Made by a program: the position numbers and the translations under genes. Positions 3,194 through 38,622 of a stretch of 50,817 nt of DNA are shown piece by piece. Numbering within the stretch: the first letter of the stretch is position 1; every line of letters begins with the position of its first letter. Location: positions 1 through 50,817 of the IMG/VR virus record IMGVR_UViG_3300009609_000028; one strand, written 5' to 3'. The notes under the pieces are model-generated. The model made no database searches and was not told the DNA's origin. It was given only the letters and a program-made list of their open reading frames with translations. Source of the stretch: a virus.

Positions 3194-3207
3194 GTGAAAA
3201 AATTACA

Positions 3208-3238
3208 AAGAAAAGGGGCCGTACCGAAGTACGACCCC
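3208..3238 (-). terminator. Intrinsic terminator with UUCG tetraloop (copy 1)
   Basis: Read on the minus strand, a 10-bp stem (GGGGUCGUAC / GUACGGCCCC, one U-G pair) is capped by UUCG closed by C-G, followed by UUUUCUUU. This is a textbook strong intrinsic terminator after the exported-protein gene at 3308-3697. The same hairpin recurs at 5067-5099. Confidence 0.9.
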
Positions 3239-3307
3239 TTCCCCTTTCATCCAGAACGAATTGCGTGGGGCGCACCCGTTCCGACTGGTCCCCTTTCGGG
3301 TTAAGTC

Positions 3308-3697
3308 TTACTGGACGAAGAGCCAGACGCCAACGAGCTGATTGCTCGCCGAGCTGGAGCCGGCGCCGAACGCGAAGTTGCTGTTCTGCGAACCAGCGAG
3401 ACCCAGCGAAGCCGAGTTGCCCGTCTGGAGCGTTTCGCTCTGATGCACCGAAGTGCTGGACTGGTCATTGCCGTCCATGATCGAAACGGCCGAACCGCCC
3501 GAAGCCGCGAGGCTCTGCGAGGTCTGGGTCGTTGCACCAGCGATGAGGCTGGCAGACGAACCCTGCGAACCAGCAACAGCCGTCGAGCTGGACGAGCTGG
3601 AACCGGCGCCGATCGCGAGACCGAAGTCAACAGCCGCCGCCGGAGTGGCGAGGACCGTGGCAGCGAGCATACCGGCAAGTGCGAAGATCTTCTTCAT
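3308..3697 (-). CDS. Exported Ser/Ala/Gly-rich low-complexity protein
   Basis: This 129-residue protein has a clear Sec signal peptide: MKK, a hydrophobic core, and TPAAA before the likely cleavage site (about residue 22). The mature part is almost entirely Ser, Ala, Gly, Gln and Asn. It has imperfect internal repeats: GAGSSSSSS with AGSQGSSAS near its start, and AGSQNSNFAFGAGSSSAS near its end. It has no cysteine, charged residues are very few, and the tail is hydrophobic (VWLFVQ). I start at ATG 3697 because GGGAG lies seven bases upstream; ATGs further upstream have poor spacing. The gene is visibly GC-richer than the packaging genes next to it. It is flanked by hairpins and ends at a strong terminator. 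No function is recognised. The composition recalls extracellular fibre-forming or surface-coating proteins, but that is inference. Confidence 0.8.
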   Translation of the reverse strand: MKKIFALAGMLAATVLATPAAAVDFGLAIGAGSSSSSSTAVAGSQGSSASLIAGATTQTSQSLAASGGSAVSIMDGNDQSSTSVHQSETLQTGNSASLGLAGSQNSNFAFGAGSSSASNQLVGVWLFVQ

Positions 3698-3717
3698 ATT
3701 CATACTCCCATTCATTT

Positions 3718-3862
3718 CCCCGGAAGTTGCTAGCAATAGGGTTTCCGGGGTCCCCCTATCTTTGAAACTTTGGAGCGCGGTATTTCTGCCGGGGGGCGAG
3801 CGATACCGCGCTCCGTGATGCGAGTTGTGGACGGGCTGACCAGAGGAGCCGTGACTCGCATC
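3718..3862 (-). repeat. Three perfect inverted repeats between two exported-protein genes
   Basis: The gap between the two exported-protein genes holds three hairpins in transcription order. The first is a 9-bp stem (3854-3862 with 3817-3825, 28-base loop). The second is a 12-bp stem (3803-3814 with 3772-3783, GC-rich, 19-base loop). The third is an 8-bp stem CCCCGGAA/TTCCGGGG (3743-3750 with 3718-3725), which ends about 20 bases before the next start codon. None is followed by a U-run, so they look like mRNA processing, stabilising or attenuating structures rather than terminators. No convincing promoter is seen in this gap. Confidence 0.75.
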
Positions 3863-3872
3863 AGAAGGTTAC

Positions 3873-4790
3873 TTACCTCGGAGGTTTAGAGGCAGCAACC
3901 TGTTCTGCTTGAACCGCGTTCTGGGCGGTGGCGTTATTCTGCGCCAATGCCCGATGCGCGGCTTCCGGCGTGATCTTGCCGTTACGCGCAATACGCGGAT
4001 TCGGGGTTTCGCCTGGAGCGGGCTGCGCTACTCGGTTCTGAACCGAGCCCAATAGCAGAAGCTGATTGCAAGCGTCGGCCGTTGATTTCTCAACGTCGGG
4101 TCCGCTGGAATCGCTCGTGCAAATCGACCAGATCATCATGCTCATGAGTTTGCCGGACAGTTCCAACTGGCCCATGTTCGCCGCGTTGACTGCCGCCATG
4201 CCGAATTTCTCGGCGCGACGCAGTGACTGGCAGCTCTTGTCGAACTTCGTGCCAGCGCCGCCGACGGAGATGCCCAACGGAGCCGCGCTTACGCCGCCGC
4301 TGACTGAACCGCCGCAGTAGTCGCTGGAGAAGCTGCTGGAGCTCGTGAGAGGCACCGCATTATTCGTGCGAATTTCTGTGGTTTTTCGGTTCTTGGTGTT
4401 CCAGGTCTGGTTGACCGTCACACCCTGCTGATTGGCTTGGCTACTGTCAAGCGCCTGATCCTGCGACTGGCCCTGATTCTGCGACTGGCCCTGATCCTGG
4501 CCCTGATCCTGGCCCATTGACTGACCCTGTTGCTGGTCAGAATTTGAGCCTGAAATGCTTTCGCTGTTGGAGCCGGAGATCGCACCTGACGAGCTGTTGC
4601 TCGTATTGGTGTTTTCGCTGACGCCGATATTGCCAACCTGTGCGTTGACGTTATCGTTATTGGACTGCGCGCCCGAGACTGAACCCGAATTCGCTTCCGC
4701 TCCCGAACCGGACGTACTCGTGAGAGTATCCTGTGCGTAAACGGGCGTCGCACCGCAAAGCAGAAGTGCGACGAGCATAGTTCTTTTCAT
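3873..4790 (-). CDS. Exported Ser/Asn/Gln-rich protein with conserved-looking cysteine domain
   Basis: This 305-residue protein begins with a Sec signal peptide (MKRTMLVALLLCGATPVYA, cleavage about residue 19). Residues about 20-85 are Ser/Asn/Gly-rich. Residues about 85-112 are a Gln-Asp-Gly tract of short repeats (GQDQGQDQGQSQNQGQSQDQ). The C-terminal half looks folded: four mature-part cysteines (DYCGG, DKSCQS, SICTSD, DACNQ), a Gly-rich SVGGAG segment, and helical segments with RRAEKFGMAAVNAANMGQ. The paired cysteines fit disulphides in the periplasm or outside the cell. I start at ATG 4790 because GGAGGGGG precedes it; a GTG at 4811 is in frame. Upstream is a promoter that is nearly duplicated before the next exported gene. 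No family is recognised with confidence. A periplasmic or surface role such as superinfection exclusion, or a virion-associated role, are both open. Confidence 0.8.
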   Translation of the reverse strand: MKRTMLVALLLCGATPVYAQDTLTSTSGSGAEANSGSVSGAQSNNDNVNAQVGNIGVSENTNTSNSSSGAISGSNSESISGSNSDQQQGQSMGQDQGQDQGQSQNQGQSQDQALDSSQANQQGVTVNQTWNTKNRKTTEIRTNNAVPLTSSSSFSSDYCGGSVSGGVSAAPLGISVGGAGTKFDKSCQSLRRAEKFGMAAVNAANMGQLELSGKLMSMMIWSICTSDSSGPDVEKSTADACNQLLLLGSVQNRVAQPAPGETPNPRIARNGKITPEAAHRALAQNNATAQNAVQAEQVAASKPPR

Positions 4791-4853
4791 GCTGAAACCC
4801 CCTCCATACACGACAGCAGGATGCTGCCGATCAATAGGTTAGCAGTCCTGAGA

Positions 4854-4919
4854 GGGGTCTACCCTTGCCCTGACCCTGCCTACCTTTGTTTGTAGGCTGC
4901 AACAGTTCAAAGCGCAAGC
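4854..4919 (-). repeat. Duplicated promoter-leader block, copy A
   Basis: About 66 bases that align end to end with 5482-5548. On the minus strand both copies run from GCTTGCGCT through a CAGC-CTACA element to GGTAGG, AGGGTCA, GGCAA and ACCCC. The likeness extends past the -35/-10 region into what should be the transcribed leader, which suggests a duplicated regulatory unit. Confidence 0.75.
4889..4917 (-). promoter_or_regulatory. Candidate promoter for the 305-residue exported protein
   Basis: On the minus strand TTGCGC (4912-4917), 17 bases, then TACAAA (4889-4894), with AT-rich DNA immediately upstream of the -35. It lies about 100 bases before the start codon and inside a block repeated at 5482-5548. 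Confidence 0.6.
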
Positions 4920-5066
4920 ACTAATTTTATCAGATATTAATCGCGGATAGGGATGATTTCAGGGGCGTAACGACGATTTGAACGCCAGCCAGAGGAGTGG
5001 TCACCTCCTGCGCCGGGGTATCGCTGACCCGACAAACCGTCTTACGCCACTCTCTGCGACCGCACA

Positions 5067-5099
5067 AAGAGGAAAGGGGCCGTACCGAAGTACGACCCC
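5067..5099 (-). terminator. Intrinsic terminator with UUCG tetraloop (copy 2)
   Basis: This has the same 10-bp stem and UUCG loop as the terminator at 3208-3238, here followed by UUUCCUCUU. It sits 24 bases after the stop of the 43-residue exported peptide. The 24-base hairpin core is identical in the two copies while the flanks differ. Confidence 0.88.
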
Positions 5100-5122
5100 T
5101 TTGTGGTCCTGGGGAGGATCAC

Positions 5123-5254
5123 TTACTTGAGGAATCCGCAGACCTGCGGCCCAAGGAATTGCTTGCAGAAGAACCAAGCTTCACTCGGTTTCGCTGCTGA
5201 AGCACTGGAGGCGAGAAAAGCGGTCGCTAGAACGAACCCTGCAATTTTCTTCAT
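5123..5254 (-). CDS. Small exported peptide (43 residues) with two cysteines
   Basis: This open frame is short but well supported: ATG at 5254 behind GGGGGAA, a perfect signal peptide (MKKIAGFVLATAFLASSASA, cleavage at ASA about residue 20), a TAA stop and then a strong terminator. The predicted mature part is only about 23 residues, starting AKPSEAWFFCKQ and ending QVCGFLK. It is aromatic, has a net positive charge, and has two cysteines nine residues apart that could form one disulphide. Upstream is a 230-base leader and a promoter shared in sequence with the neighbouring exported gene. The function is unknown. Size, charge and export would fit a periplasmic peptide acting on the host envelope, such as exclusion or inhibition of an envelope process, but nothing in the sequence decides this. 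Confidence 0.75.
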   Translation of the reverse strand: MKKIAGFVLATAFLASSASAAKPSEAWFFCKQFLGPQVCGFLK

Positions 5255-5517
5255 GGCAATTCCCCCAGAATAAGGCGGAGGGGTCGGGTGACTTATCAAG
5301 AATCAAGGGTAAACCCGAGGTCCTTGGAACTATTGAGTGATCGATTGAGTCCGGTCGTCCGAAGACAGTTAGAAACAGTCGCTCACCGCGTCACGCACAT
5401 TGTTCGTCGAAAGCTACTTCGTTCACCAAGAGTACCGAAGTACCCAGGATCGGAAGAGGAAAACCGCTAGCCCGAGGGCTGGGGGTTGACCCGTTGCCTT
5501 GACCCTTCCTACCTATA
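5255..5517 (-). ncRNA. Long structured leader of the small exported peptide mRNA
   Basis: From the predicted start near 5510 to the ATG at 5254 lie about 250 bases without a plausible minus-strand gene. The stretch contains a stem AGCCC/GGGCT near 5470-5481 and a UUCG-capped hairpin GGGTAC-UUCG-GTACTC (5430-5445). The 12-base core of that hairpin, GTACTTCGGTAC, is identical to both terminators of the cassette. It may be a regulatory leader or a small RNA. A 60-codon plus-strand frame at 5288-5470 lacks a ribosome site and is probably chance. Confidence 0.4.
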
Positions 5518-5548
5518 GGTGTAGCTGGCGTTTGCTCATAGCGCAAGC
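5482..5548 (-). repeat. Duplicated promoter-leader block, copy B
   Basis: This is the second copy of the block at 4854-4919. On the minus strand it runs GCTTGCGCTATGAGCAAAC, then CCAGCTACACC, TATAGGTAGG, AAGGGTCA and GGCAA, ending ACCCCC. It precedes the 43-residue exported peptide. Confidence 0.75.
5518..5546 (-). promoter_or_regulatory. Candidate promoter for the small exported peptide
   Basis: On the minus strand TTGCGC (5541-5546), 17 bases, TACACC (5518-5523). The spacer starts TATGAGCAAA, a motif also found in the promoters at 15109, 17676 and 18335. An AT-rich palindrome sits just upstream of the -35. Confidence 0.6.
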
Positions 5549-5580: not shown

Positions 5581-5655
5581 TGGCGGCCAAGCTCAGAATC
5601 GAACTGAGATCATCGGTTTTAGAGACCGGAGCATTACCATTATGCTGACAAGGCC
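5581..5655 (-). tRNA. tRNA with CUA anticodon (putative amber suppressor), slightly irregular
   Basis: The minus strand folds as a 75-base tRNA with encoded CCA and G73. The D stem is GCAT/ATGC around AATGGTA. The T arm is CTCAG-TTCGATT-CTGAG, a perfect five-pair stem. The anticodon stem is CCGGT/ACCGA with loop CTCTAAA, giving U33 and anticodon CUA, which reads UAG. Irregularities: two U-U oppositions in the acceptor stem (GGCCTTG with CTTGGCC), a C-A opposition at the base of the anticodon stem, and three rather than two bases between acceptor and D stem. The general shape and G73 recall tRNA-Gln. It lies nine bases after the stop at 5665 and is probably co-transcribed with that gene. A decayed tRNA is the alternative. 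Confidence 0.72.
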
Positions 5656-6332: not shown

Positions 6333-6902
6333 TTATAAGTCATGTTCCCAGCCTAACTCTTGGTAGAATAGTATTCGTGTTCCAGGATCATGTAGGTTGT
6401 AGATCTTAATTTTCTTGTCTTCAGCGATGCGGAGAGCTTGACCTGTACCACCAATCGCTTTACCATTGCTAGTCCAGCAGACTACGAATTTAGAAGGGGT
6501 TGCACAATCACGCCCTAGAATCTGCATTGTGTTACGAGTGTGCAGCTTTTTCGCACCTTCGGAACAAGCCAACCAATTCGGATGATATTTCTCAGCGATG
6601 CTTCTGGCTACGCCAAGTTCCGTCGGGGTGAGATGAAGAAGATCGGGCTTGCCGTTGAAGCGATTCCACGGGAGAAAGATCTCCATGGTCGCCATCACTG
6701 GAGTCCCCTGTTCGAATGCTTCGTCAGCTCCCGGTGCGCCACCTGATCGGAGAACATAGCCCCGGTCGTACAGCATACGAGCAATCCCCCGCATCAAGTG
6801 ACAGATATTGTCGGGAGTCTCCTTTGAACCGATGCCAGCGTAAGCGACATAGTCCTTGACCTTGGGAAATGGCTGAATAGGATATGGGGGACGAGGACTC
6901 AT
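6333..6902 (-). CDS. SLOG/DprA-like Rossmann-fold protein
   Basis: This 189-residue protein has the signature of the SLOG superfamily: a first strand with YAGIGSKETP (about residues 20-29), a glycine-rich nucleotide loop LRSGGAPGADEAFEQG (about 51-66), and a late loop GGTGQALRIA (about 153-162). SLOG domains bind nucleotides or their derivatives and occur in DprA, LOG phosphoribohydrolases and bacterial conflict systems. Phage members are common but mostly uncharacterised. The start ATG overlaps the stop of the Dda-like helicase by four bases (ATGA), so it is translated with the replication genes. Possible roles are processing of a modified or signalling nucleotide, or DNA binding in recombination. 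The SLOG call is fairly sure; the function is open. Confidence 0.7.
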   Translation of the reverse strand: MSPRPPYPIQPFPKVKDYVAYAGIGSKETPDNICHLMRGIARMLYDRGYVLRSGGAPGADEAFEQGTPVMATMEIFLPWNRFNGKPDLLHLTPTELGVARSIAEKYHPNWLACSEGAKKLHTRNTMQILGRDCATPSKFVVCWTSNGKAIGGTGQALRIAEDKKIKIYNLHDPGTRILFYQELGWEHDL

Positions 6903-8311
6903 CTGACAAGATCACAGTGCTGTTGGGCGCGGGTCAATCCTGTATAGAGCCATCGGTCGTGTCCGTCTCCCGGCCAGTCGTCGCACACGATTGTTCGGGG
7001 CCATTCGGATCCCTGGGATTGATGACAGGTAATGGCGTATCCCCACCAGAATTTTCCGAATTGATCGTCGAGGAAATCGGTGAAACTTCTACCCCCGAGG
7101 CCTTTGATCCATACATCAACCGGCTCAATAACCCGACCGTACGGATCAATGATGGAGAGTCGTGCAACAGTACCATTACGAATCACCTCACTACTACGAA
7201 CAGTATAGATCTCACCATTCATTATTCCTCGCTTCTTGTCGTTATAGACAGAAACGACTTTTTCACCCGGCTGAGGGTGGGCGGTGGTATGTCCCATTTT
7301 CGCTCGGACAAAGCGGCAAAGGCGCTCGCGAGTTTTGTGAGTTCCACAGATAATTTGATCTGTGCTTGTCCAAGCTGCGTCAGGGAGTGAATTGCGGTGG
7401 TGAATGCTGACGCTTTCATTTGCGGAAATTTCTTCTCCATTGCGTAGCCTTTCACCTGCAAGAGGAATTCCGGCACCAATACCTTTCTGGCGTTCAATCT
7501 TGGTCAGCACCGATTGAGGCGACAGGTTATGCCAATAGGGCTTCGCCTTGACGGGTGGTAGCTGAAATGGGTCCCCAACTAGAATCGTCGGGATACCGAA
7601 GGAGATAATGTCCTTACCATGAGTCTCATTGACCATGGAAGACTCGTCTATCATAAAGAGGCTGTACTTGGCGATGACTTCCAGCGGCTCTTTCTTACGC
7701 ACTGGAAGATCCTCAGACATAAGATCAATGATAGCTTGCTTGTGCAGTGCGATCTTTTCCTTGCGGATGGTGACGAAGATCTCCTGCCTAGCATTGGGAT
7801 CGGTAGGCAATTCCAAACCTTCAAACTTGAGGATAGTCTCACCACGTTGAGCACAGAATTCCTTGAATTCGGCTTCGTCAAAAGCGAGACCATCTTCTGC
7901 TAGTAGAGCACGGTACTCCATTTGGAGATCCTGCCCTGACTGAGTGATAAGAGCCTCACTGAGCTCGTTAAAACTGACAGCCTCATCCCACATGCGAAGT
8001 CGTTCACGCTGGAAATTGATTTCTTCCGACAGTGTGAGGTAGATTAACTTGTGAACTGTTTGCGTGAACAGACCCGTCTTGTTTGCGAGAACCTTAGCAG
8101 CACGATTAGTAGGGGCTGCTAATGCTACGCGCGAGAGAGCCACGCGAAGTCGGTTAAGTAGAATGCGAATGAGGGTAGTCTTACCTGTTCCGGCATAGCC
8201 CTGAAGGATGTACGGCTTGGAGTGGTCGCCTGATAAGAACCAACGTACGATGTCATCCACCGCAGCTTTCTGTTGGTCATTCAGGTCTTCATAAGTGAGT
8301 TCAATCGTCAA
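6899..8311 (-). CDS. Dda/RecD-like superfamily 1B DNA helicase
   Basis: This 5'-3' helicase probably assists replication start, fork progress or recombination, as T4 Dda does. With a TTG start at 8311 it has 470 residues and begins MTIELTYEDLNDQQKAA, closely matching the beginning of Dda-type proteins; GGGGAT lies just upstream. An ATG at 8377 would overlap the preceding gene by 77 bases. Motif I is GYAGTGKTT (about residues 37-45), motif II FMIDESSMV (about 218-226), motif III VGDPFQLPPVK (about 242-252), and the late motifs are TCHQSQGSEW and YTGLTRAQQ close to the C-terminus. A helical insertion between motifs Ia and II (about residues 80-200) is longer than in Dda. It sits downstream of the 84-residue gene and is coupled to the SLOG gene. 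Confidence 0.9.
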   Translation of the reverse strand: MTIELTYEDLNDQQKAAVDDIVRWFLSGDHSKPYILQGYAGTGKTTLIRILLNRLRVALSRVALAAPTNRAAKVLANKTGLFTQTVHKLIYLTLSEEINFQRERLRMWDEAVSFNELSEALITQSGQDLQMEYRALLAEDGLAFDEAEFKEFCAQRGETILKFEGLELPTDPNARQEIFVTIRKEKIALHKQAIIDLMSEDLPVRKKEPLEVIAKYSLFMIDESSMVNETHGKDIISFGIPTILVGDPFQLPPVKAKPYWHNLSPQSVLTKIERQKGIGAGIPLAGERLRNGEEISANESVSIHHRNSLPDAAWTSTDQIICGTHKTRERLCRFVRAKMGHTTAHPQPGEKVVSVYNDKKRGIMNGEIYTVRSSEVIRNGTVARLSIIDPYGRVIEPVDVWIKGLGGRSFTDFLDDQFGKFWWGYAITCHQSQGSEWPRTIVCDDWPGDGHDRWLYTGLTRAQQHCDLVR

Positions 8312-12432: not shown

Positions 12433-12992
12433 TTGAAATCTCCCCGCTCGAGCTTATCCATCTCGGTACGAATCTCTGCACGAAGATCCATCATACCCAT
12501 GAGCAGCTCAGTGTCCATTTTCGTAAAGGCAACCTTATGATTATCAAACGTCTGCGTCATTTTATTGTATGAGCGTTCCATGTAGATCATGGCATAGGTG
12601 TTTCCGAGGCGTCGTTCACGCGCCATGCTGATACAGAATTCAGCGCGATCAAAGAATTCAATGACTGCCCATTCACTTTCAGTGGTCGTCTTATAGTCAT
12701 CGCATAAATGCTCAGGCAGCGTGTCCATGATATGCTGCTTCTCAAGCCTATCCATCTCATCCCCAAGGACGGGATTGGCCCACTTAGTCGGCCCCGGCAT
12801 ATCACCAGTGGCTCGCTCTCCACAGTCGTGGATAATAGCCATCTTGATAATATGCTCTGGGACATTAGGCCAAGCACAGATGAGGAGCATGGTCAGACCC
12901 CATGTATGCTCAGCATCATTCTCCGCACGGATGTTCTCCATCGTGTGCTTGCGAACAACCTGTCCATTTCGCCATGCTTCAATGTAGCTCAA
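12426..12992 (-). CDS. HD-domain 5'-deoxynucleotidase (YfbR-like)
   Basis: This 188-residue metal-dependent phosphohydrolase has the HD signature: His in NDAEHTWG (about residues 26-33), the HD pair in AIIHDCGERATGDMPGPTKW (about 52-71) and a final Asp in EFFDRAEF (about 113-120). E. coli YfbR dephosphorylates dNMPs; several phages use relatives to remove canonical nucleotides or make precursors for modified bases. Its start is TTG 12992, overlapping the stop of the thymidylate-synthase homologue as TTGA, so the two are translated together. That pairing suggests control of the dUMP/dTMP or dCMP pool during synthesis of a modified thymidine. The HD family call is firm; the substrate is inferred. 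Confidence 0.85.
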   Translation of the reverse strand: MSYIEAWRNGQVVRKHTMENIRAENDAEHTWGLTMLLICAWPNVPEHIIKMAIIHDCGERATGDMPGPTKWANPVLGDEMDRLEKQHIMDTLPEHLCDDYKTTTESEWAVIEFFDRAEFCISMARERRLGNTYAMIYMERSYNKMTQTFDNHKVAFTKMDTELLMGMMDLRAEIRTEMDKLERGDFKW

Positions 12993-14062
12993 TCTGGTCT
13001 CTCCGCTTCTACTATGGTAATCTTATTCCGGCTATAATTCTCAAGTCTTCGCTGAAACCATGCTTCGCAATTTAGTCCTAGAGCATCAGATCTGCAATGT
13101 TCTAGAGCCGCTAAAGCAAACTCAATCCTCAGCTCAAACTCAATATCAAGACCAGTAAGCATCTTATACTTATAGACTCGATACGCTTCACATATCGGTT
13201 TCGCAACCGTAGTCAGCCAACTTGGGTCAGCAAGGACATCATCTGTGATCTTGTTGTAGTTGACGAAATTCCTATACGGTTCTATTTCAAGAGGGATTCC
13301 GAACTCGCTCAGACTAAGATCTTCCTCTGGAGATTTCGGCCCCTTTTCAATCTCCAGCATATGTTCCCAGCAGTGCTTGGAAGCGGGATTCTCAAGATAC
13401 AAGTGCATATTCTTGGAGATCTGATAGTAGGTCCCAAGTCCTAGCCCTGTATGAAGCGCGATAAATTCATGCAGGAAAGAGAAATGGTAGAGATTGCTAC
13501 CCATCGCACCATAGATAAGATCATTGCTACGGTTGGTGACTGTCATGTCAAGGTAGTAGCCACTGGGATGAATCGTCGTAGGTCGTGTATCAAACAAGAC
13601 CTGTTGATTACAAGCGAAATCTAGACCTTCATCCTTGAATAATTCCTTGGGATCCCACATCTGTAAGACAATGCGACGATCTTCAGGATTCTTCTTCAGT
13701 TTCTCTACAACCTTGAGAATCTGGTCGCCCCATCGCTTTCGCCAACGATATCCGTAAGGTGCTGCGAATGTCACTCCATCATCGGAGTACTGCTTCATCC
13801 CAGAATTATAGAGCTCTAGTGGTGCGACAGTATTCAAACCTGCCAGCATCCACAGAGTCTCAAACATATGAAAGAAAGGATTAGCGTCCCGAATAGGATT
13901 GTCCAGGATTCGGCGCCGAGGGTTTGAGTATTGAAGAGCTACTGGCTCAGGGAAGCGAATGACCGGGCCGTTCCTACTGGTAGTCGTGATGCCATTTTCT
14001 CTCAGCACTCGCATCACACGGCCGAGTCCCTCATTCGGGCAATCAATGTCGAATTCGTACAT
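12989..14062 (-). CDS. Thymidylate synthase homologue, possible dUMP hydroxymethylase
   Basis: This enzyme transfers a one-carbon unit to C5 of a pyrimidine nucleotide. Family features include NPFFHMFETLWMLAG (about residues 61-75), AAPYGYRWR and WGDQI, RRIVLQMWDPKE (about 128-139), the catalytic Cys in FACNQQVLF (about residue 150) and TNRSNDLIYGAMGSNLYHFS (about 175-194). The usual CH after the nucleophile is CN here, and the segment around the nucleotide-binding Asn reads GSN, as in a phage-specific branch. That branch contains both thymidylate synthases and dUMP hydroxymethylases, which I cannot separate by eye; an Asn there favours dUMP over dCMP. At 357 residues it is longer than E. coli ThyA. 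Its neighbours are a glycosyltransferase and a YfbR-like nucleotidase, which argues for making 5-hydroxymethyl-dUMP. Confidence 0.85.
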   Translation of the reverse strand: MYEFDIDCPNEGLGRVMRVLRENGITTTSRNGPVIRFPEPVALQYSNPRRRILDNPIRDANPFFHMFETLWMLAGLNTVAPLELYNSGMKQYSDDGVTFAAPYGYRWRKRWGDQILKVVEKLKKNPEDRRIVLQMWDPKELFKDEGLDFACNQQVLFDTRPTTIHPSGYYLDMTVTNRSNDLIYGAMGSNLYHFSFLHEFIALHTGLGLGTYYQISKNMHLYLENPASKHCWEHMLEIEKGPKSPEEDLSLSEFGIPLEIEPYRNFVNYNKITDDVLADPSWLTTVAKPICEAYRVYKYKMLTGLDIEFELRIEFALAALEHCRSDALGLNCEAWFQRRLENYSRNKITIVEAERPD

Positions 14063-14065
14063 GAA

Positions 14066-14878
14066 TCACCTCATATTGTAGGTGGGATTCCGCGTGCCTC
14101 TCTGGTAGGCTTGCTTCCACTGGACACGGACATCAGTTCTTTTACCAGCGAACCCACCACTTCCCGTCTTTGGCTCCTTCTCAACAACCTTAACCGAAAG
14201 AGGATGTAGTTCCGCGAGGCGATGCGACGCGGCGGCCTGAGTCTCTTTTGTACGGTAATGAGTAAAACCTCCGGGAGCGCCACTCCCCTTACACTGATCC
14301 CAAGCCGCGTCCGTAAGAACAATGTTCTTCTCCCCAACTTCAAAGAGACTGAGGACAACGTGGTAGTCTTCCATCATGTCAACGGCATCATAGCGAATAC
14401 CATAGTGACGGAGTGCTTCAGGGTTCACGCAATGAACAGCGTTCATTCGCTGGATAGTCTGATGCTTGTCGGGGTAGCACCAGTTATTTCCTTGTCGTGG
14501 TGAGAGTCCAGCGTGGACATAACTCATGTTGGAGAAATTCGGCTGAACCATCTCATCTAGCCAGTCCATAATTCGTTCAACGTCGGCTCCCGCCGGACGG
14601 AGATTATGGGCTCGAGGGTCTTTCCTAACAAAGAATGCTAGATCATCGTCAAGCATAATCACGGGCTGACCCGGCGTAGCAAGCTCATCGACTATCCATT
14701 GGCGTACCCCGCTAAGGGGGCCAGCGGGGCGGGCTACCACGTTTCGAGAACGCTCGAGATGGCTCGAGACCTCATCCGCCGGTACCACTAAGCGGGTAGC
14801 CGCTTGCAGCCTAGGAGTGAGATTGTCCCATGTAAATTGAGCATTTACCCTGTCACGAGTAGGAATGAATATTTGCAT
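14066..14878 (-). CDS. TET-associated-type GT-A glycosyltransferase (probable DNA base glycosyltransferase)
   Basis: This 270-residue protein has the pattern I associate with TET/JBP-associated glycosyltransferases (TAGT): an N-terminal IPTRDRVN strand, the metal- and sugar-nucleotide-binding VIMLDDDLAFF (about residues 73-83, DxD type), HAGLSPRQGNNW (about 119-130), MMEDYHVVLSLFEVG (about 166-180), FTHYRTKETQAAA and a basic C-terminal segment ending RTDVRVQWKQAY. TAGT enzymes are thought to add sugars to hydroxymethylated bases in phage DNA. No TET/JBP oxygenase is in the window, so the acceptor hydroxyl would come from the thymidylate-synthase homologue next to it. The start is ATG 14878 with GGGAGAG upstream. 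The stop lies three bases before the next start. The family call is likely; sugar and acceptor are unknown. Confidence 0.72.
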   Translation of the reverse strand: MQIFIPTRDRVNAQFTWDNLTPRLQAATRLVVPADEVSSHLERSRNVVARPAGPLSGVRQWIVDELATPGQPVIMLDDDLAFFVRKDPRAHNLRPAGADVERIMDWLDEMVQPNFSNMSYVHAGLSPRQGNNWCYPDKHQTIQRMNAVHCVNPEALRHYGIRYDAVDMMEDYHVVLSLFEVGEKNIVLTDAAWDQCKGSGAPGGFTHYRTKETQAAASHRLAELHPLSVKVVEKEPKTGSGGFAGKRTDVRVQWKQAYQRGTRNPTYNMR

Positions 14879-14902
14879 GGAACAATCTCTCCCAGTTAAA
14901 GT

Positions 14903-15064
14903 TTATTCTTCCGGATCTTCGTTGGGCTCTTCAGCGACTTCGTTGTTCGGCTCCACCGGAGGCTCATCCTCGGGCGGCTGCTCTTCAGCGGGCTGCTCCT
15001 CGGGCTGCGGCTCTTCGGCTACGGGTTCAACCGGAGCGTCAACGACCTCATTTTCTTCTTGCAT
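14903..15064 (-). CDS. Very acidic Pro/Glu-rich mini-protein (53 residues)
   Basis: The frame runs from ATG 15064 (AAAGGG upstream) to TAA. Of 53 residues about 22 are Glu or Asp and 12 are Pro, in short repeats such as EEPQPEEQPAEEQPPEDEPP. There are no Lys, Arg, Cys or aromatic residues. It must be unfolded and strongly negative, like DNA-mimic or charge-shield tails. It is much richer in GC than its neighbours and has its own promoter-like site at 15109-15138. It lies between two genes proposed to act in DNA base modification. Possible roles are a DNA mimic inhibiting a host DNA-binding enzyme, or a partner for a basic protein. The composition alone cannot decide, and such low-complexity frames can be chance; the promoter and ribosome site argue that it is real. 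Confidence 0.65.
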   Translation of the reverse strand: MQEENEVVDAPVEPVAEEPQPEEQPAEEQPPEDEPPVEPNNEVAEEPNEDPEE

Positions 15065-15108
15065 GACTTACCCTTTCTATGGTTTTACTGAGGAACCCCA
15101 GTCTTATA

Positions 15109-15138
15109 ACCCTAGCAGGTAATTTCTCAAAACGCTAA
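15109..15138 (-). promoter_or_regulatory. Candidate promoter of the acidic mini-protein
   Basis: On the minus strand TTAGCG (15133-15138), 18 bases, TAGGGT (15109-15114). The spacer begins TTTTGAGAAA, shared with the promoter at 18335-18363 (GCGTTTTGAGAAA in both). It lies in the gap after the gene at 15150 and 45 bases before the next start. Confidence 0.5.
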
Positions 15139-15149
15139 TTCAAAATAAC

Positions 15150-16037
15150 TCAGACCGTGTACGGTTTTGCCTTTCGCCAATCGTAACCAGAGCGTGGACG
15201 TCCTTCACCATTCTTGACTCGGAGATATTTGTCTAGTTCACAAAGGCTGAACTGAACATCTGTAACGCCGTAATCAACGCCTGGAGTCGGCATGTATGGT
15301 CGGAGGTGACCTCCTGTGCTGAGCAGCCCGAGAAGGTCTATCATCTCAGCTACAGCCTTCGGTTGAGACAAAGGCGCTTGCAACGGGCGATCATGCAGAC
15401 GGTTCAAGCCACGAATCGCCCCAGGACCTGCGGGACTCCATGTTAGCTTATCGGTTGCATTTTCCAGGAGAGGAGTCAACATCATATCCAGCGCAATCTC
15501 CTTGGACATGAACGGGCCGATCCCCGGCTGCTGCTGAAGAAACTCTGCGACATCTTGCCAGCGATTACGCTGACAGAGCTCTACCACGCGGGCGGCGCGA
15601 AACCTAAGTGGTGTGAGGAACTGACAAACTACGACATTTTGCTTGGGGTCGGTGCTTCCAGCATTCGTAATAATGTAGGCTCCAGTGAATACCTTCTCAC
15701 CCCGGCTGAGTCTATCATTCGCTGTCTGCAAAAGAAACTCGGGATTCCAACTCTGCTGAAAACCGACAGCAGAACAGAATTCAATGCTGCCAAAGTATCT
15801 GGCGAGAGCGCAGTTAATAACGAGCATTTCCAGATCAGCATCGCGGTTAGGATCGTACCAATTCTTCTTCAGCCAGCGGGTAGTGCGATCATCGGAACGT
15901 CGTATGTTTGTGAACTTGTAGCGACCTAAGATTGGGTCAAGTGTCCAGGGACCTGGAGATCCTTCCTCGCGCATCTGGCGAATTTTCTCGCGTTCATTAA
16001 GGTAGAATACGAAAGTCTCAAAATTCTCTTGGTTCAC
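15150..16037 (-). CDS. aGPT-Pplase / 5-hmdU DNA kinase helical-domain family protein (DNA hypermodification)
   Basis: This 295-residue all-helical protein contains WTLDPILGRYKFTNIRRSDD (about residues 30-49), RWLKKNWYDP, and GEKVFTGAYIITNAG (about 113-127). A glycosylase-like helix-hairpin part follows, with QQPGIGPFMSKEIALDMM (about 178-195). These match the family first described computationally as alpha-glutamyl/putrescinyl-thymine pyrophosphorylase and linked to 5-hydroxymethyl-dU DNA phosphorylation or hypermodification. Members occur in phages whose thymidine is replaced by modified forms. I use the GTG at 16037 (GGAGA upstream), since an upstream GTG at 16094 would run through a terminator hairpin and add an unlikely leader. 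With the thymidylate-synthase homologue and glycosyltransferase downstream it forms a putative thymidine modification set. The family call is by recalled motifs; the exact step is uncertain. Confidence 0.75.
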   Translation of the reverse strand: MNQENFETFVFYLNEREKIRQMREEGSPGPWTLDPILGRYKFTNIRRSDDRTTRWLKKNWYDPNRDADLEMLVINCALARYFGSIEFCSAVGFQQSWNPEFLLQTANDRLSRGEKVFTGAYIITNAGSTDPKQNVVVCQFLTPLRFRAARVVELCQRNRWQDVAEFLQQQPGIGPFMSKEIALDMMLTPLLENATDKLTWSPAGPGAIRGLNRLHDRPLQAPLSQPKAVAEMIDLLGLLSTGGHLRPYMPTPGVDYGVTDVQFSLCELDKYLRVKNGEGRPRSGYDWRKAKPYTV

Positions 16038-16049
16038 AGCGAGTCTCCA

Positions 16050-16084
16050 ACGAAAGAGAGGCGAGTGCCAAAGACACCCGCCTC
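16050..16084 (-). terminator. Intrinsic terminator after the gene at 16109
   Basis: On the minus strand GAGGCGGGTG (16075-16084) pairs with CACTCGCCTC (16058-16067), one G-U pair, seven-base loop, followed by TCTTTCGTT. It ends the transcript of the two GC-rich genes upstream and lies just before the GTG start at 16037. Confidence 0.75.
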
Positions 16085-16108
16085 CCAGTCCCACCCACGG
16101 AAGGTGTA

Positions 16109-18269: not shown

Positions 18270-18627
18270 AATCTGCTTCCTTTTCTAAACAAACTTCAAC
18301 AGGAGAATAGAACCCGGTAACAGGTTGCCCATGCCTTATATTACGATTTTTCTCAAAACGCAAAAACCGAAACTTGTTTATGCCTAGATCAATGAGCACC
18401 ATTCCAGTGATGATCGCTGATAGAGGATCCCCTCCAGCCCAGACTATGAAGTCTTCGTTAGGCCGGAAGTCTTTGAGCGCACGACGCAGTTTCTCAAAAG
18501 ACAGCTCGGGATTCGCGCAAGTGCGATCACCTGCTGAGAGGACAAAGCAGATCTCGCCATACACGCCCGCCGCGCTGACGTCGGCCTGGAAGCGGGTGGC
18601 TTGCAGGACAAAGACTTTATTCGTCAT
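18262..18627 (-). CDS. Small conserved-type phage protein, function unknown
   Basis: I start at ATG 18627 (MTNKVFVLQATRFQADVS), eleven bases inside the end of the helicase gene; a TTG six bases earlier is also open. The 121 residues form an alpha/beta pattern with a glycine motif FIVWAGGDPLSAIITGMVLI (about residues 60-79) followed by RFLRFEKNRN and a C-terminal PVTGFYSPVEV. The block resembles a small Rossmann-like or nucleotide-binding fold, but no known family is named here. It is translated with the SNF2 helicase and the coiled-coil gene. Confidence 0.72.
   Translation of the reverse strand: MTNKVFVLQATRFQADVSAAGVYGEICFVLSAGDRTCANPELSFEKLRRALKDFRPNEDFIVWAGGDPLSAIITGMVLIDLGINKFRFLRFEKNRNIRHGQPVTGFYSPVEVCLEKEADYG
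18335..18363 (-). promoter_or_regulatory. Candidate internal promoter within the 18262 gene
   Basis: On the minus strand TTGCGT (18358-18363), 17 bases, TATAAG (18335-18340); spacer begins TTTGAGAAA. It lies inside the coding region of the small gene and 66 bases before the start of the coiled-coil gene at 18269. Confidence 0.5.
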
Positions 18628-20380
18628 CAGCAAAAAGATCCCTTATGTCTATTAGGTTCTCAGCGATAGCCTTCTTATCTTTGAGTACCTTATCTATTCG
18701 GTCATCCACAGTCTTAGGTGCGATAAGATAATGGTAGTTCACAACCTTATGCTGCCCGATGCGATGGACTCGGTCATTAGCCTGGAGTTCATTCTCTAGG
18801 GAGAAGTCTCTCGCATACCAGATGACCTCGGAAGCGACAGTAAGATTGAGACCGAAGAAAGCAGCCTTTGAACCGATGAAGACCTTAACGTCTGGGTCGT
18901 CCCGGAAGCGCCTGATGCTTTCAGCCTTATCCTTAGTTCGGCCGACATAATCCACCCATCCAATCTTCGCTGCGGTGAGCGCCCTTGTGAGAAGATTCCA
19001 ATCACCTTCGAATTTGATGTAGACGATGACCTTACTCTGGGATTCACGGATAATATCTAAGGTACGTTCCACACGGTTGTTATCAAATTCTTGGTAGATT
19101 TCGGGCTCAACAATTTTCCCAGTATCTGGATCCTTCTTTGGGCGCTTCCAAATGAATCCGCCGATTAGCTGTTGGAAACGTATCAAGCGAGTGATTGCCA
19201 TACGAGCTGTGAGGATTCCAGCTTCCAAGTCAAGGAAGAAGTCCTTCTTCATCTTGGCATACATATCTTTCTGCTCTTGGGTGAGCAAGACTTCCTGCCT
19301 AATATAATTTCGCTCAGGCAAATCCAAGCAATCCTCTTTCAGCACGCGGTAGGTGTAGGAATCAATCTTACGCTTGAGTTCGTCTTCGTTGATGTAGCCG
19401 GTGATCTTGTTAAATTTCTTCCTATTCTTCCCAGAACCTACTTCAATCAAGGTAAGCTGGCAGAAATGATTCCGGAAAGCATAGAAGCTATTGTAGCCGA
19501 GGATATGCTTATCCAAGAAGTAGAACTGAGAATAGATATCTTCCACTCCCTGTGAGATCGGGGTGCCCGTCAGAATGCGCCGATATTTCGCTAACTTACC
19601 CAGCTCGCACAGAGTCTTAGTGCGCTTAGAATTAGGATCTTTAATTCGGCTACTCTCATCTACCACGAGCATCGCGTTGCAACTGAGCAGAAGTTCCTGT
19701 AAGAGTTTCTTACCGCTCGTATGACTCATCATGTCAATATGAATAGCGATGATCCTAAGACCATCCTTGAATTCCTTAGCCTTACGAAACTGCCTAGCCT
19801 CATCTAGAGTTGGTGACGCTACTGTGTACCCGCCCGCGTAAGGGATAGACTCAAGAAAGTGCTCGGGCACCTGCTCATTAATCCACTGAGCGTGTACTCC
19901 GTTCGGCGCTACAATAATGAGAGTGTCTATCCGTCCTGCCTCACCGCCGTTGAGATAGATATCCGCAGCATCATCAAGTAGAGTTTTGGTCTTTCCAGTT
20001 CCCTGCTCCATGAAGTAACCGAAGGCGACTTTACCTCTGGCGAGTGAAAATGCTTTAAGCTGATGCTGGTATGGAACAGTCCTGAAAGGGAATTCAACAC
20101 TTTCTGGCTCAAGCCAACGAGCATCCCTAGTGTTCTTCTCGGCGAGACGCATCGCCCGGAATTGCTCCACTAGGTTGGCCGCTGGCCCGCGCCAAGTGAT
20201 GCCCTCCAAACGTATGTCTAGATACTCTAGGTTGCTCCTCGAGAGCTCTATGAAGGGTTTGCCCTGTACATACCGCTTGCGGCCCGGGAGCTCTGCAAGA
20301 ACGTTAAAGACGTGCGGAGGTATGCGGTCATTAATCCACGCCTTCTTATCGTCGGAGTCTATCGTGATTTGTATATTCAC
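18617..20380 (-). CDS. SNF2-family helicase/translocase
   Basis: This 587-residue superfamily 2 ATPase translocates on double-stranded DNA. It starts at GTG 20380 (MNIQITIDSDDKK) with no better ATG nearby. An N-terminal HARP-like stretch (about residues 1-85) precedes the core. Motif I is FMEQGTGKTKTLLD (about 123-136), motif II is LVVDESSRIKD (about 243-253), motif III is RRILTGTPISQG (about 268-279), and late motifs are YIKFEGDWNLL, GLNLTVASEVIWY and NDRVHRIGQHKVVNYH (about 539-554), the last being diagnostic of SNF2 proteins. DESS in place of DEAH is usual for phage members. Related phage genes occur in replication modules with family A polymerase and may act in fork restart or recombination. 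It directly follows the last tail gene with a gap of 12 bases. Confidence 0.93.
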   Translation of the reverse strand: MNIQITIDSDDKKAWINDRIPPHVFNVLAELPGRKRYVQGKPFIELSRSNLEYLDIRLEGITWRGPAANLVEQFRAMRLAEKNTRDARWLEPESVEFPFRTVPYQHQLKAFSLARGKVAFGYFMEQGTGKTKTLLDDAADIYLNGGEAGRIDTLIIVAPNGVHAQWINEQVPEHFLESIPYAGGYTVASPTLDEARQFRKAKEFKDGLRIIAIHIDMMSHTSGKKLLQELLLSCNAMLVVDESSRIKDPNSKRTKTLCELGKLAKYRRILTGTPISQGVEDIYSQFYFLDKHILGYNSFYAFRNHFCQLTLIEVGSGKNRKKFNKITGYINEDELKRKIDSYTYRVLKEDCLDLPERNYIRQEVLLTQEQKDMYAKMKKDFFLDLEAGILTARMAITRLIRFQQLIGGFIWKRPKKDPDTGKIVEPEIYQEFDNNRVERTLDIIRESQSKVIVYIKFEGDWNLLTRALTAAKIGWVDYVGRTKDKAESIRRFRDDPDVKVFIGSKAAFFGLNLTVASEVIWYARDFSLENELQANDRVHRIGQHKVVNYHYLIAPKTVDDRIDKVLKDKKAIAENLIDIRDLFADDE

Positions 20381-20392
20381 GGTTAAGTCTTT

Positions 20393-21217
20393 CTAAGCGG
20401 CAGCTATGTTCTCAAGAGTCCATGTCTGGCTGTGAGTATTATAAGAGTCAAAAGAAATTGTTCTCCCTTCAGTGATCGTACAATAAAATGTCATTTTCTG
20501 TAGGTATTTCGTATCCTCAACATCAAGACAAGCAAGAAATTCTTTCCCGGCACCCCGCCAATAATTGAATTCCCAAGCAAAGTCCATCATCTCAGCTTTA
20601 CTTAAGAAATCCATCTGCACCGAGGCACCGGGGATAGGCGGAATATAATCTAGCACTAACGTCCCACGATCGGTGCGCTCATGGCGCGAAAGATCTAAGA
20701 AGTTAACTTGCGATCCATACTGCCAGCCGTAGGTCGGCTTCCATTTAAGACCGACAAACAACCGCCCAAAGAATGGAAGGACACCACCTGTGTTCGTTGG
20801 AGTAATACGAATATAGCGATAGGTCAATACTGTAGGGGAAACGAACAGCGTCAGATTACGCCTGAGCATATGCTTCTGGTTTTGGACTGTCTGTCCAGCG
20901 ACTGTATGAGCTAAAGCCAGAGTTCCAGCCGCCTGGAGAGTTACCCAAACAGAATTATTCGTGCTGCCTTCCACGAGTATTGTGGCGTCATGCGCTAGAT
21001 TCGTATGGATCAATGAGATCACATCCCAGCTCTTCGCAGCACCTAAGTCCCACGTGATTACCGGGGCAACCTGAGTAGCTAGCATCACCTGCGTAGGATC
21101 GTAAGTGAGAAGATTACTCGCAGGGTATGATGCGTTTGCGTGTGCGCTCGCAGGTACAGTGGTCACCTTGTCATAGTCAGGGTGCTGTTCTATTGGGGCG
21201 ACGAAGAAAATGCTCAC
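20393..21217 (-). CDS. Distal tail protein with discoidin-like carbohydrate-binding fold (probable)
   Basis: This 274-residue protein begins at GTG 21217 behind a strong GGAGG. The first half has the F5/8 type C (discoidin) pattern: ASYPASNLLTYDP, then ITWDLGAAKSWDVISLIHTN, ILVEGSTNNSVW, and YRYIRITPTNTGG (residues about 30-150). The second half is beta-rich (GWQYGSQVNFLDLSRHERTD...). Such modules bind surface sugars. As the last gene of the tail cluster it is likely a distal tail or receptor-contacting component. It ends in TAG; the reading frame then continues for four codons straight into the GTG of the SNF2 helicase, which is in the same frame. Readthrough fusion is possible on paper but functionally odd. 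Confidence 0.75.
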   Translation of the reverse strand: MSIFFVAPIEQHPDYDKVTTVPASAHANASYPASNLLTYDPTQVMLATQVAPVITWDLGAAKSWDVISLIHTNLAHDATILVEGSTNNSVWVTLQAAGTLALAHTVAGQTVQNQKHMLRRNLTLFVSPTVLTYRYIRITPTNTGGVLPFFGRLFVGLKWKPTYGWQYGSQVNFLDLSRHERTDRGTLVLDYIPPIPGASVQMDFLSKAEMMDFAWEFNYWRGAGKEFLACLDVEDTKYLQKMTFYCTITEGRTISFDSYNTHSQTWTLENIAAA

Positions 21218-23377: not shown

Positions 23378-23920
23378 TTACAAAGAGATTTTAGGATACT
23401 CTCGTACCTGTTCCGCAAGTTTGATCTGATCTCTTATATTAGCATTCGCTTTGACCATATCAGAAATATTGAGAAGCGGCTGTTCCTGAGGTTCTTCCCC
23501 TTCCCCCATAGGAACCATTACCTTTAGATAGGGTTCCTCCCCAAGGATAATCCTCGCCACATCTGTAGCAATAGCATCAACTCCATGCTCAATTGCGAAT
23601 AAAGCAGGAACAGAATAGGTAAAGGCAGATCCAATGTGCTGGTTTCGAGCAGAGAGTTTGGAGGAGCCATCGTCTTCAATCAATCTGGCAAAAGCATGAA
23701 AGCTGACACCTTCACCATTCGATAACCAGTGAGTCTCCACTCGTAATGCTATGAGATTTCCATCATCTAGCTCAAAGGTTTCCTCACCAGGATAAAGTCC
23801 TGGTGCCACAGAATCATGGTTTCCGAGAATTAATCCATTCTCATTATCTCTTGTTGTTTTAGTCAATAGGAGCTCATCCCGAGCAGGGATCTTCCGATTA
23901 ACTTTGGAGTATCTTGGCAT
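23378..23920 (-). CDS. Tail-cluster protein of unknown function
   Basis: This 180-residue acidic protein starts at ATG 23920 with AGGA eight bases upstream. The N-terminus is basic (MPRYSKVNRKIPARDELLL). The middle is beta-rich (YPGEETFELDDGNLIALRVE, then WLSNGEGVSFHAFARLIEDD). The C-terminal part has helices and a conserved-looking DAIATDVARIILGEE. No family is recognised. It lies between the hub and the proline-rich protein, and its reading frame is the same as that of the hub: the hub's amber stop is followed by only three sense codons before this ATG. Suppressed readthrough would therefore fuse it to the hub's Hint domain. Confidence 0.75.
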   Translation of the reverse strand: MPRYSKVNRKIPARDELLLTKTTRDNENGLILGNHDSVAPGLYPGEETFELDDGNLIALRVETHWLSNGEGVSFHAFARLIEDDGSSKLSARNQHIGSAFTYSVPALFAIEHGVDAIATDVARIILGEEPYLKVMVPMGEGEEPQEQPLLNISDMVKANANIRDQIKLAEQVREYPKISL

Positions 23921-37923: not shown

Positions 37924-38622
37924 TCATGATCCATCCAATTCCATAGCACAGGCATAGTGGACCCCAGAACTTGTCCCAGACTGCCACGTCACATTGGTTC
38001 CTGAAAGGACACCAGGATTATAGGCATAGCATTTCTGGCCGAAGACTGGGGTGCTGAAACTGCCACCGCTAGCACCGATTGATCCAGCCGGCCCAGTCTG
38101 GGCACTGGATGCCGACTGACAAGCATCGGTGGTGAATACCATGCTCGTGGCGAGCATAGTCACTCCCATGGAGATGTTGGCAGCGGTGCCTGACGCCAGT
38201 GAGTTGCTGGTGACACCTGTACTACGAACAGCAGCTGCTCCTACCTTAGTCATGTTAGTGACTTTGTAGCAGACCATGCCTCCACCTGTGTGAGTCGCAG
38301 AAGGAACGGTGACAGTGGTGCTGACCGCCGAGGTAATCTTACTATCGCGGACAAAAATTCCGATGGCGTCCGAACCACCAGAGCGAGTCAAAGTTACAGC
38401 TCTGGTATAGGTTCCACCCTGATCATCGGAGATCGTTCCAGCATCCGCTGCTCCGGCCTTGCCGACAATCGCCACTACTAGGTCGCCGACCGCCGGAGTG
38501 AAGGTGACATTTTTAGAGGTCGCGTCGGTATTCCAAGTGCTGTCACCGTAGATCGAGACAACTGGAGCCGGGGGAGGCCCAGGAGGAATGCCTCGATTCC
38601 ACATGGCGGCGATCGCTTTCAT
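37924..38622 (-). CDS. Beta-rich structural or fibre-associated protein, unknown
   Basis: I start at ATG 38622 (MKAIAAMWNRGIPPGPPPAP), which overlaps the fibre stop as TAATG; an ATG at 38655 lies inside the fibre gene. The 232 residues are Gly/Ser/Thr-rich and beta-strand rich (VTFTPAVGDLVVAIVGKAGA, GGTYTRAVTLTRSGGSDAIG, VSTTVTVPSATHTGGGMVCY). Such sequences occur in phage fibre tips and decoration proteins. A Pro-rich linker follows the first 12 residues. It is translationally coupled to the giant fibre, so it may cap or assist it. No family is recognised. Confidence 0.7.
   Translation of the reverse strand: MKAIAAMWNRGIPPGPPPAPVVSIYGDSTWNTDATSKNVTFTPAVGDLVVAIVGKAGAADAGTISDDQGGTYTRAVTLTRSGGSDAIGIFVRDSKITSAVSTTVTVPSATHTGGGMVCYKVTNMTKVGAAAVRSTGVTSNSLASGTAANISMGVTMLATSMVFTTDACQSASSAQTGPAGSIGASGGSFSTPVFGQKCYAYNPGVLSGTNVTWQSGTSSGVHYACAMELDGS

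Follow-up and report, generated by a model that had tools for sequence, protein, structure and literature searches.

A pair of adjacent genes, here termed g2 and g1, was analysed in a phage contig of 50,817 nucleotides (IMG/VR record IMGVR_UViG_3300009609_000028, positions 1 to 50,817, hereafter the window). As judged by comparison of 13 distinct loci, both proteins carry export signals, the genes remain together and appear to have moved between unrelated phages, the conserved residues of g1 alternate along its chain, and g1 is preceded by an RNA pseudoknot of constant shape and varying sequence that appears to be new here. We tentatively favor the reading that the pair is a mobile export module in which g1, made in excess, assembles together with g2 on the infected cell's envelope, probably excluding other phages. 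No published description of the g2-g1 unit was found.

Organization of the region

The contig encodes terminase, tail, tape-measure, DNA polymerase, helicase and thymidylate-synthase-like genes, and nearly all genes are on the minus strand. Three genes with Sec signals (g1, g2 and g3) sit between an exonuclease gene and orf175. The minus-strand order is an amber tRNA, followed by the features below.

5482 to 5548, minus strand: promoter-leader block of g3, with TTGCGC-N17-TACACC at 5518-5546
5123 to 5254, minus strand: g3, a 43-residue precursor with a signal peptide, leaving a mature peptide of about 23 residues with two cysteines
5067 to 5102, minus strand: terminator after g3, UUCG tetraloop (terminator scan)
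4854 to 4919, minus strand: promoter-leader block of g2-g1, with TTGCGC-N17-TACAAA at 4889-4917
3873 to 4790, minus strand: g2, 305 residues, with a signal peptide, an arm (about residues 21-120) and a four-cysteine domain
3817 to 3862, minus strand: first strong hairpin of the g2-g1 gap (RNA folding)
3772 to 3814, minus strand: second strong hairpin of the gap (RNA folding); relatives have similar hairpins
3718 to 3760, minus strand: H-type RNA pseudoknot, stem 1 GAUAGGG/CCCUAUU, stem 2 CCCCGGAA/UUCCGGGG
3308 to 3697, minus strand: g1, 129 residues, with a signal peptide and a cysteine-free, nearly uncharged chain
3207 to 3246, minus strand: terminator after g1, UUCG tetraloop (terminator scan)

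Signal peptides were assigned with a set of rules and by visual inspection. Among 38 candidate window genes, the rule-based scan gave clean Sec/signal peptidase I (SPase I) signals in g1, g2 and g3 only, with cleavage sites (slash) MKKIFALAGMLAATVLATPAAA/VDF, MKRTMLVALLLCGATPVYA/QDT and MKKIAGFVLATAFLASSASA/AKP, one each for g1, g2 and g3; a fourth match falls in a doubtful open reading frame (ORF) at the contig end. The summed content of Ser, Asn, Gln and Gly is 44% in g1 and g2 versus 13-30% in every other window gene, and GC content is 63.6% in g1 and 58.2% in g2 versus about 49% in the remaining window. These values bear out a prediction made earlier from the window sequence, which described three exported proteins, two of them Ser/Asn/Gln/Gly-rich, in a region GC-richer than its neighbors.

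The duplicated regulatory elements of that prediction were also recovered. The two promoter-leader blocks are 70% identical over 71 nt, and both carry TTGCGC-N17-TACAMM on the minus strand; the repeated block occurs exactly twice in 50.8 kb (4868-4919 and 5497-5548; 0 expected), as does the identical terminator core GGGGCCGTACCGAAGTACGACCCC (3215-3238 and 5076-5099; 0 expected). Since promoter block and terminator core are each present twice, the region is two transcription units built from the same parts, promoter-g3-terminator and promoter-g2-g1-terminator. Thus the "self-contained cassette" of the original prediction stands as an autonomous exported unit with its own signals, and not as one unit of three genes.

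Distribution of the pair

Approximately 2.9 million viral contigs were scanned with g2, g1 and alignments of both as queries, all of which recovered the same loci, and 84,980 species genomes were searched. The 13 distinct loci comprise 11 phage lineages, including the window, and two sphingomonad chromosomes; three same-species contigs were left out. The ten further phage lineages (L005, L006, L007, L008, L021, L036, L038, L076, L077 and L084) are represented by metagenomic records, which may be fragments. In all 13 loci g2 is followed by g1 on the same strand, with a spacing in the further phages of 76-231 nt except in L007, where another gene lies between them. Relative to the window, g2 is 40-73% identical and the aligned copies of g1 are 40-87% identical. 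L006, L008, L021 and L038 have a TTGACA-type promoter no more than 90 nt from g2, and a terminator-like hairpin follows g1 in seven of the ten loci tested with a simple scan.

The third gene does not travel with the pair. A degenerate DNA pattern search located g3 in same-species contigs only, and none was seen in the ten other phage lineages, so that of the co-occurring set of three genes originally proposed, only g2 and g1 held together in the homologue search. The second unit, with its promoter and terminator of the same type, would add g3 as a private peptide, probably at the same time as g2-g1. Mature g3, a peptide of 23 residues with two cysteines, would suit a secreted antagonist, with g3 or g1/g2 inhibiting or signaling to neighboring cells. 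We regard this as highly unlikely: g3 is not conserved, neither g1 nor g2 matched a toxin family in Pfam or PHROGs, and no immunity gene was seen traveling with the pair.

No other window protein compared matches L005-L008, which argues that the pair moved between unrelated phages; in whole-record comparisons with the other phage records, terL is absent or just 33-34% identical. The pair has no fixed genome place, and its neighbors differ among phages. Judged by reading, these include DNA polymerase-like genes (L007, L038, L077) and capsid-like genes (L036, L084). No tyrosine integrase (PF00589) was found in the window record and seven relatives, records that may be incomplete and in which serine integrases were not sought; the phages are apparently lytic. 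The earlier designation of the region as a moron applies insofar as the same unit lies at different places in unrelated phages and has its own promoter and terminator (by consensus and repeat evidence only), and finds no support in the classical sense of a prophage gene that alters the lysogen. Proteins with PDQGLP or DNELP repeats adjoin or lie near the pair in L007 (10968-11435), L008 (11591-12043) and L021 (8970-9332); searches of Pfam and PHROGs gave no match for them.

A capsid-like gene follows the pair in L036, and in L084 the pair lies between capsid-like and portal-like genes, as might be expected if g2 and g1 belonged to the virion, for example as capsid decoration, and had N-termini that resemble signals by chance. 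This is improbable because of the SPase I-type signals in the aligned copies and the probable disulfides of g2, whose four invariant cysteines suit an oxidizing compartment; a promoter and terminator of the pair's own and the lack of a fixed genome place also speak against it.

Chromosomal copies

Sphingomonas sp. IC081 and Novosphingobium organovorum each carry the pair with both genes intact, amid ordinary cellular genes and insertion-sequence remains. A prophage origin of these copies was rejected, as no phage genes are recognizable nearby save an integrase-like fragment in IC081 (L028, 2392-3048). Upstream of the pair and divergent from it, each locus encodes a 78-residue LuxR/GerE-type DNA-binding protein (L028, 5818-6063, minus strand; L029, about 6779-7015, minus strand). 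The two regulators are about 70% identical, and regulator and pair are the only substantial stretches common to the two loci; the three genes resemble a single unit that occurs in two sphingomonad genera. The phage records yielded no LuxR/GerE-type gene. Cellular copies of the pair are rare: 400 further genomes from the family to which Sphingomonas sp. IC081 belongs contained none, the weak matches inspected being due to chance, which leaves one of 401 sampled family genomes, namely the query itself. The two chromosomal copies make sphingomonads the likely hosts of the pair-carrying phages, which probably infect soil and freshwater members of this group; the host assignment depends on these two copies.

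A regulator in this position is what a cell-surface operon might have, and it recalls biofilm operons. An exported polymer could glue infected cells or debris to each other or to surfaces and so favor local spread. The sequence evidence for such a matrix is identical to that for a module acting on the cell's own envelope; a lytic phage, however, has little time to build a matrix, and we consider this reading rather unlikely.

An RNA pseudoknot precedes g1

The g2-g1 gap, whose structure the original prediction had missed, folds far better than shuffled sequences (z = -3.7). In addition to the two hairpins it contains the H-type pseudoknot, which ends 20 nt before the g1 start and is the best-scoring pseudoknot of the whole 50.8-kb strand. 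Of the 13 loci, 12 have a pseudoknot with this geometry whose end lies 15-29 nt ahead of the g1 start codon (stem 1, 5-11 pairs; stem 2, 5-9 pairs; loop 1, 1-6 nt; loop 2, 0-2 nt; loop 3, 7-13 nt); L029 has none under strict geometry. The stems differ among loci (for example, CCCCGGAA/TTCCGGGG, ACCGGACA/TGTCCGGT, AGGGACA/TGTCCCT and CGGCCGA/TCGGCCG), so that pairing is kept while bases change. Shuffling gave p values per locus from 0.0025, the floor of the test, to 0.01. The geometry was noticed on the first ten loci, and all three loci found afterward (L076, L077 and L084) have the pseudoknot. A score of -24 was reached by 9 of 10 g1 leaders versus 3 of 229 other start codons in the same loci. 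The search used plain stacking energies without loop costs and hence ranks candidates rather than measuring stability, and because it chooses the pairs, the result is conservation of a foldable shape and not a column-wise covariation test.

Nothing comparable precedes g2 or g3. Rfam 15 gave no gathering-score match at the g1 leader; its sole match in the window was the tRNA, and sub-threshold matches were noise. A riboswitch was considered unlikely, since the loop sequences are not conserved. The location of the pseudoknot, together with its constant shape and unconstrained loops, suggests a mechanical function, either at the ribosome-binding site or in the stability of the message, and we infer that it raises g1 over g2.

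The g1 protein

Mature g1 has about 107 residues, no cysteine and almost no charge. In an alignment of ten sequences its invariant positions alternate with a period of two along the mature chain (autocorrelation at lags 1-7: -0.36, 0.40, -0.39, 0.39, -0.48, 0.40, -0.43; permutation p ≤ 5e-5), as on one face of beta strands. The conserved face consists mostly of S, G, A, T, N and Q, and the opposite face is just mildly more hydrophobic (mean hydropathy -0.35 and +0.28). This is too little hydrophobicity for a barrel embedded in lipid to be likely; the pattern would fit a beta structure of the stacked or solenoid type. AlphaFold returned an all-beta g1 model with long strands at low confidence (mean pLDDT 51), and sequence searches found no relatives of solved structure.

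Both genes are under purifying selection, with dN well below dS in each of five pairs compared. In all five, synonymous divergence is lower in g1 than in g2, and the GC content of g1 is raised even in AT-richer phages. Together these suggest strong codon bias in g1, as for a strongly expressed gene, which would in part account for the GC-rich appearance of the region.

The g2 protein and its remote family

The arm of g2 is S/N/Q/G-rich and of low complexity, like g1, and has the same period-two conservation (p = 0.003), which the g2 domain lacks (p = 0.35). Four cysteines occur in every mature copy (C159, C187, C224 and C241 in the window g2), versus zero in g1; the g2 domain is probably disulfide-bonded and suited to an oxidizing compartment.

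No Pfam family fits g2 or g1. Against 50,697 phage records, the window g2 had no match at E values up to 0.1, and the g1 consensus, the L021 domain and the L008 g2 had none up to 10; g2 had no match in plasmids. The L008 g2 matched phrog_20531 (PHROGs v4, function unknown) with an E value of 3.8e-6. The other g2 proteins, tested singly, had no PHROG match at E ≤ 0.01 or 0.1, which makes the link remote. The same family was matched by proteins of Pelagibacter phage HTVC033P, Roseobacter phage CRP-207, Achromobacter phages phiAxp-2 and 2-1, and a spring-water podovirus. Profile-profile alignment (hhalign) of 13 g2 sequences with five members of the phrog_20531 family gave a probability of 95.3 and P of 2.1e-8 over 36 columns, a short core on which the link depends (SSSFSSDYCGGT.SGG.S.AP.GIS.GG....DKSCQ). 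A composed motif query served as the first lead to these relatives; every later comparison was made with real sequences. The g2 domain thus appears distantly related to an undescribed phage family, which qualifies the earlier statement that no described system has this set of genes; as regards matches in the phage records, that statement stood.

Members of the family are found in pelagiphages (HTVC033P gp46, HTVC202P gp24, Mosig_00202), roseophages (CRP-207 gp75, CRP-810 gp53) and Achromobacter phages (phiAxp-2, AXY1, 2-1, vB_Ade_ART), those of HTVC202P, Mosig, CRP-810, AXY1 and ART being assigned by reading. In common with g2 they have a signal peptide, an S/T/N-rich polar arm, several conserved cysteines and the motif SFSxDxC...GG.S...GIS.G...DK.C, followed by further cysteines; beyond the motif, similarity is weak. 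In all four Achromobacter phages the relative directly follows another exported low-complexity gene, rich in G/S/A/N, so that the two-part design seems to recur, with the order reversed relative to g2-g1. Near the phrog_20531 genes no g1 homologue was recognizable by sequence, and no g1-type pseudoknot was found before genes of the family. In three pelagiphage loci (L105, 2701-4979; L114, 2752-4752; L113, 1250-3915) the gene after the g2 relative encodes a large acidic protein that appears to be exported and is annotated in one case as carbohydrate-binding, and a small membrane coiled-coil-like protein is encoded next; these may represent a different partner set for the same g2-related domain.

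In HTVC033P, CRP-207 and CRP-810 at most a few genes separate the g2 relative from a lysozyme gene, and in L005 and L006 an endolysin gene directly follows g1. These neighborhoods, with the long beta strands of the low-confidence g1 model, would suit an accessory lysis function, in which g2 and g1, exported late, weaken or open the outer membrane in place of spanins. Four observations argue otherwise and leave this reading rather unlikely: a lipobox is absent from every copy (0 of 26 pair proteins); the other nine phages have no identified endolysin beside the pair, their neighbors including capsid-, portal- and DNA polymerase-like genes; the pair is retained alongside a regulator in two bacterial chromosomes; and the faces of g1 are too little hydrophobic for a membrane barrel.

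Proposed function

The mobile export module that we favor could operate as follows. The phage would transcribe g2 and then g1 from their own promoter up to the strong terminator. The gap, with its two hairpins and the pseudoknot bordering the g1 ribosome-binding site, would split the message in effect, such that g1 is made in excess. Both proteins would leave the cytoplasm through Sec. As the bulk subunit, g1 would polymerize or stack as a beta-rich uncharged chain, and g2, with its low-complexity arm and disulfide-stabilized domain, would start or anchor g1 at the envelope. The altered envelope would keep other phages off or stop new virions, once released, from being lost on the infected cell; the most direct gain to an apparently lytic phage would be to shut out competitors or to spare its progeny. 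The main alternatives to this proposal are an aid to lysis and an adhesive matrix. We infer g1 excess, polymerization, anchoring and exclusion from sequence, and the same holds for the change of the host envelope already proposed in the original prediction.

Several points weigh against this proposal. Endolysin beside the pair in L005 and L006 and lysozyme near some remote g2 relatives suit lysis too; the pseudoknot loops are not conserved, which makes the effect on expression a guess; and curlin repeats and a phage CsgG are lacking. Neither structure model is good enough to be used (mean pLDDT 51 for g1 and 39 for g2), and a fold search with the g1 model gave pore-former hairpins (TM about 0.3, rmsd > 11 Å), which were treated as meaningless. 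A more specific version, about which we are skeptical, is a new type of phage-encoded, horizontally mobile surface polymer in which cysteine-bonded g2 nucleates or anchors beta-stacked g1, a pseudoknot leader of a class first seen here sets their ratio, and bacteria have adopted the system at least twice, in each case next to a LuxR-type regulator.

Comparison with described systems

Like the curli proteins CsgA and CsgB, g1 and g2 are two exported low-complexity proteins, perhaps major and minor, and the chromosomal loci have a divergent LuxR-type regulator, as csgD is divergent from csgBA. The pair differs in the four-cysteine domain of g2 and the pseudoknot leader. A pattern search for the curlin repeat S-X5-Q-X4-N-X5-Q gave 0 of 26 pair proteins, and PF07012 was absent from 13 records, with a positive E. 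coli control. CsgG (PF03783) was found neither in the window nor in N. organovorum; Sphingomonas sp. IC081 has two. Membership in the curli system was rejected because no curlin repeat and no phage CsgG were found. The likeness of g1 to functional amyloids would consist of the sequence alternation and a weak all-beta model.

Phages are known to modify the infected cell's envelope by means of single small proteins, and the superinfection-exclusion proteins T5 Llp, Cor and SieA are single small lipoproteins or membrane proteins. Along with CwpV, they resemble the pair in acting at the envelope or surface, stopping phages and being encoded by self-contained genes, exclusion by the pair being conjectural; the pair differs in comprising two non-lipidated, beta-patterned proteins of apparently lytic phages. 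The two-component spanins are likewise two adjacent exported products of a phage unit; g1 and g2, with their cleavable signals and lack of a lipobox, were not classed as spanins. Polymers and proteins at the cell surface are able to fend off phages. CwpV, a cell-wall protein on the surface of the bacterium C. difficile, is described as protecting against phages (PMC4737114), and T7 as bound in the curli layers of E. coli biofilms (PMC8346279).

A mobile two-protein export module, if real, would add a second way in which apparently lytic phages change the envelope, and would span phages of soil, freshwater and, via the remote relatives, ocean alphaproteobacteria. The pair would also offer the first point of entry into a phage protein family without an assigned function, and its pseudoknot leader is a concrete RNA element whose shape, and not sequence, is conserved at a dozen loci.

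Other features of the window

Directly upstream of the g3 promoter is a tRNA with anticodon CUA (5581-5655, minus strand), an amber suppressor, labeled Pyl by ARAGORN and scoring 51 bits with the Rfam tRNA model. Some genes ending in TAG continue in frame into the next gene (23930-27958 into 23378-23920, and 20393-21217 into 18617-20380), making readthrough products possible. An alternative genetic code was rejected: in-frame TAG codons are absent from the replication and cassette genes, and most genes stop at TAA or TGA, so that recoding does not explain the region. Genes at 12989-16094 (minus strand) encode a thymidylate-synthase-like protein, a glucosyltransferase-like protein (phrog_842) and a protein with a 5-hmdU DNA kinase domain (PF18723, E = 2e-38), which probably constitute a pathway for hypermodified-thymidine DNA. 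A single ORF of 3832 residues at 38622-50120 (minus strand), with nine matches to phage tail repeats (PF12789), occupies more than one-fifth of the contig.

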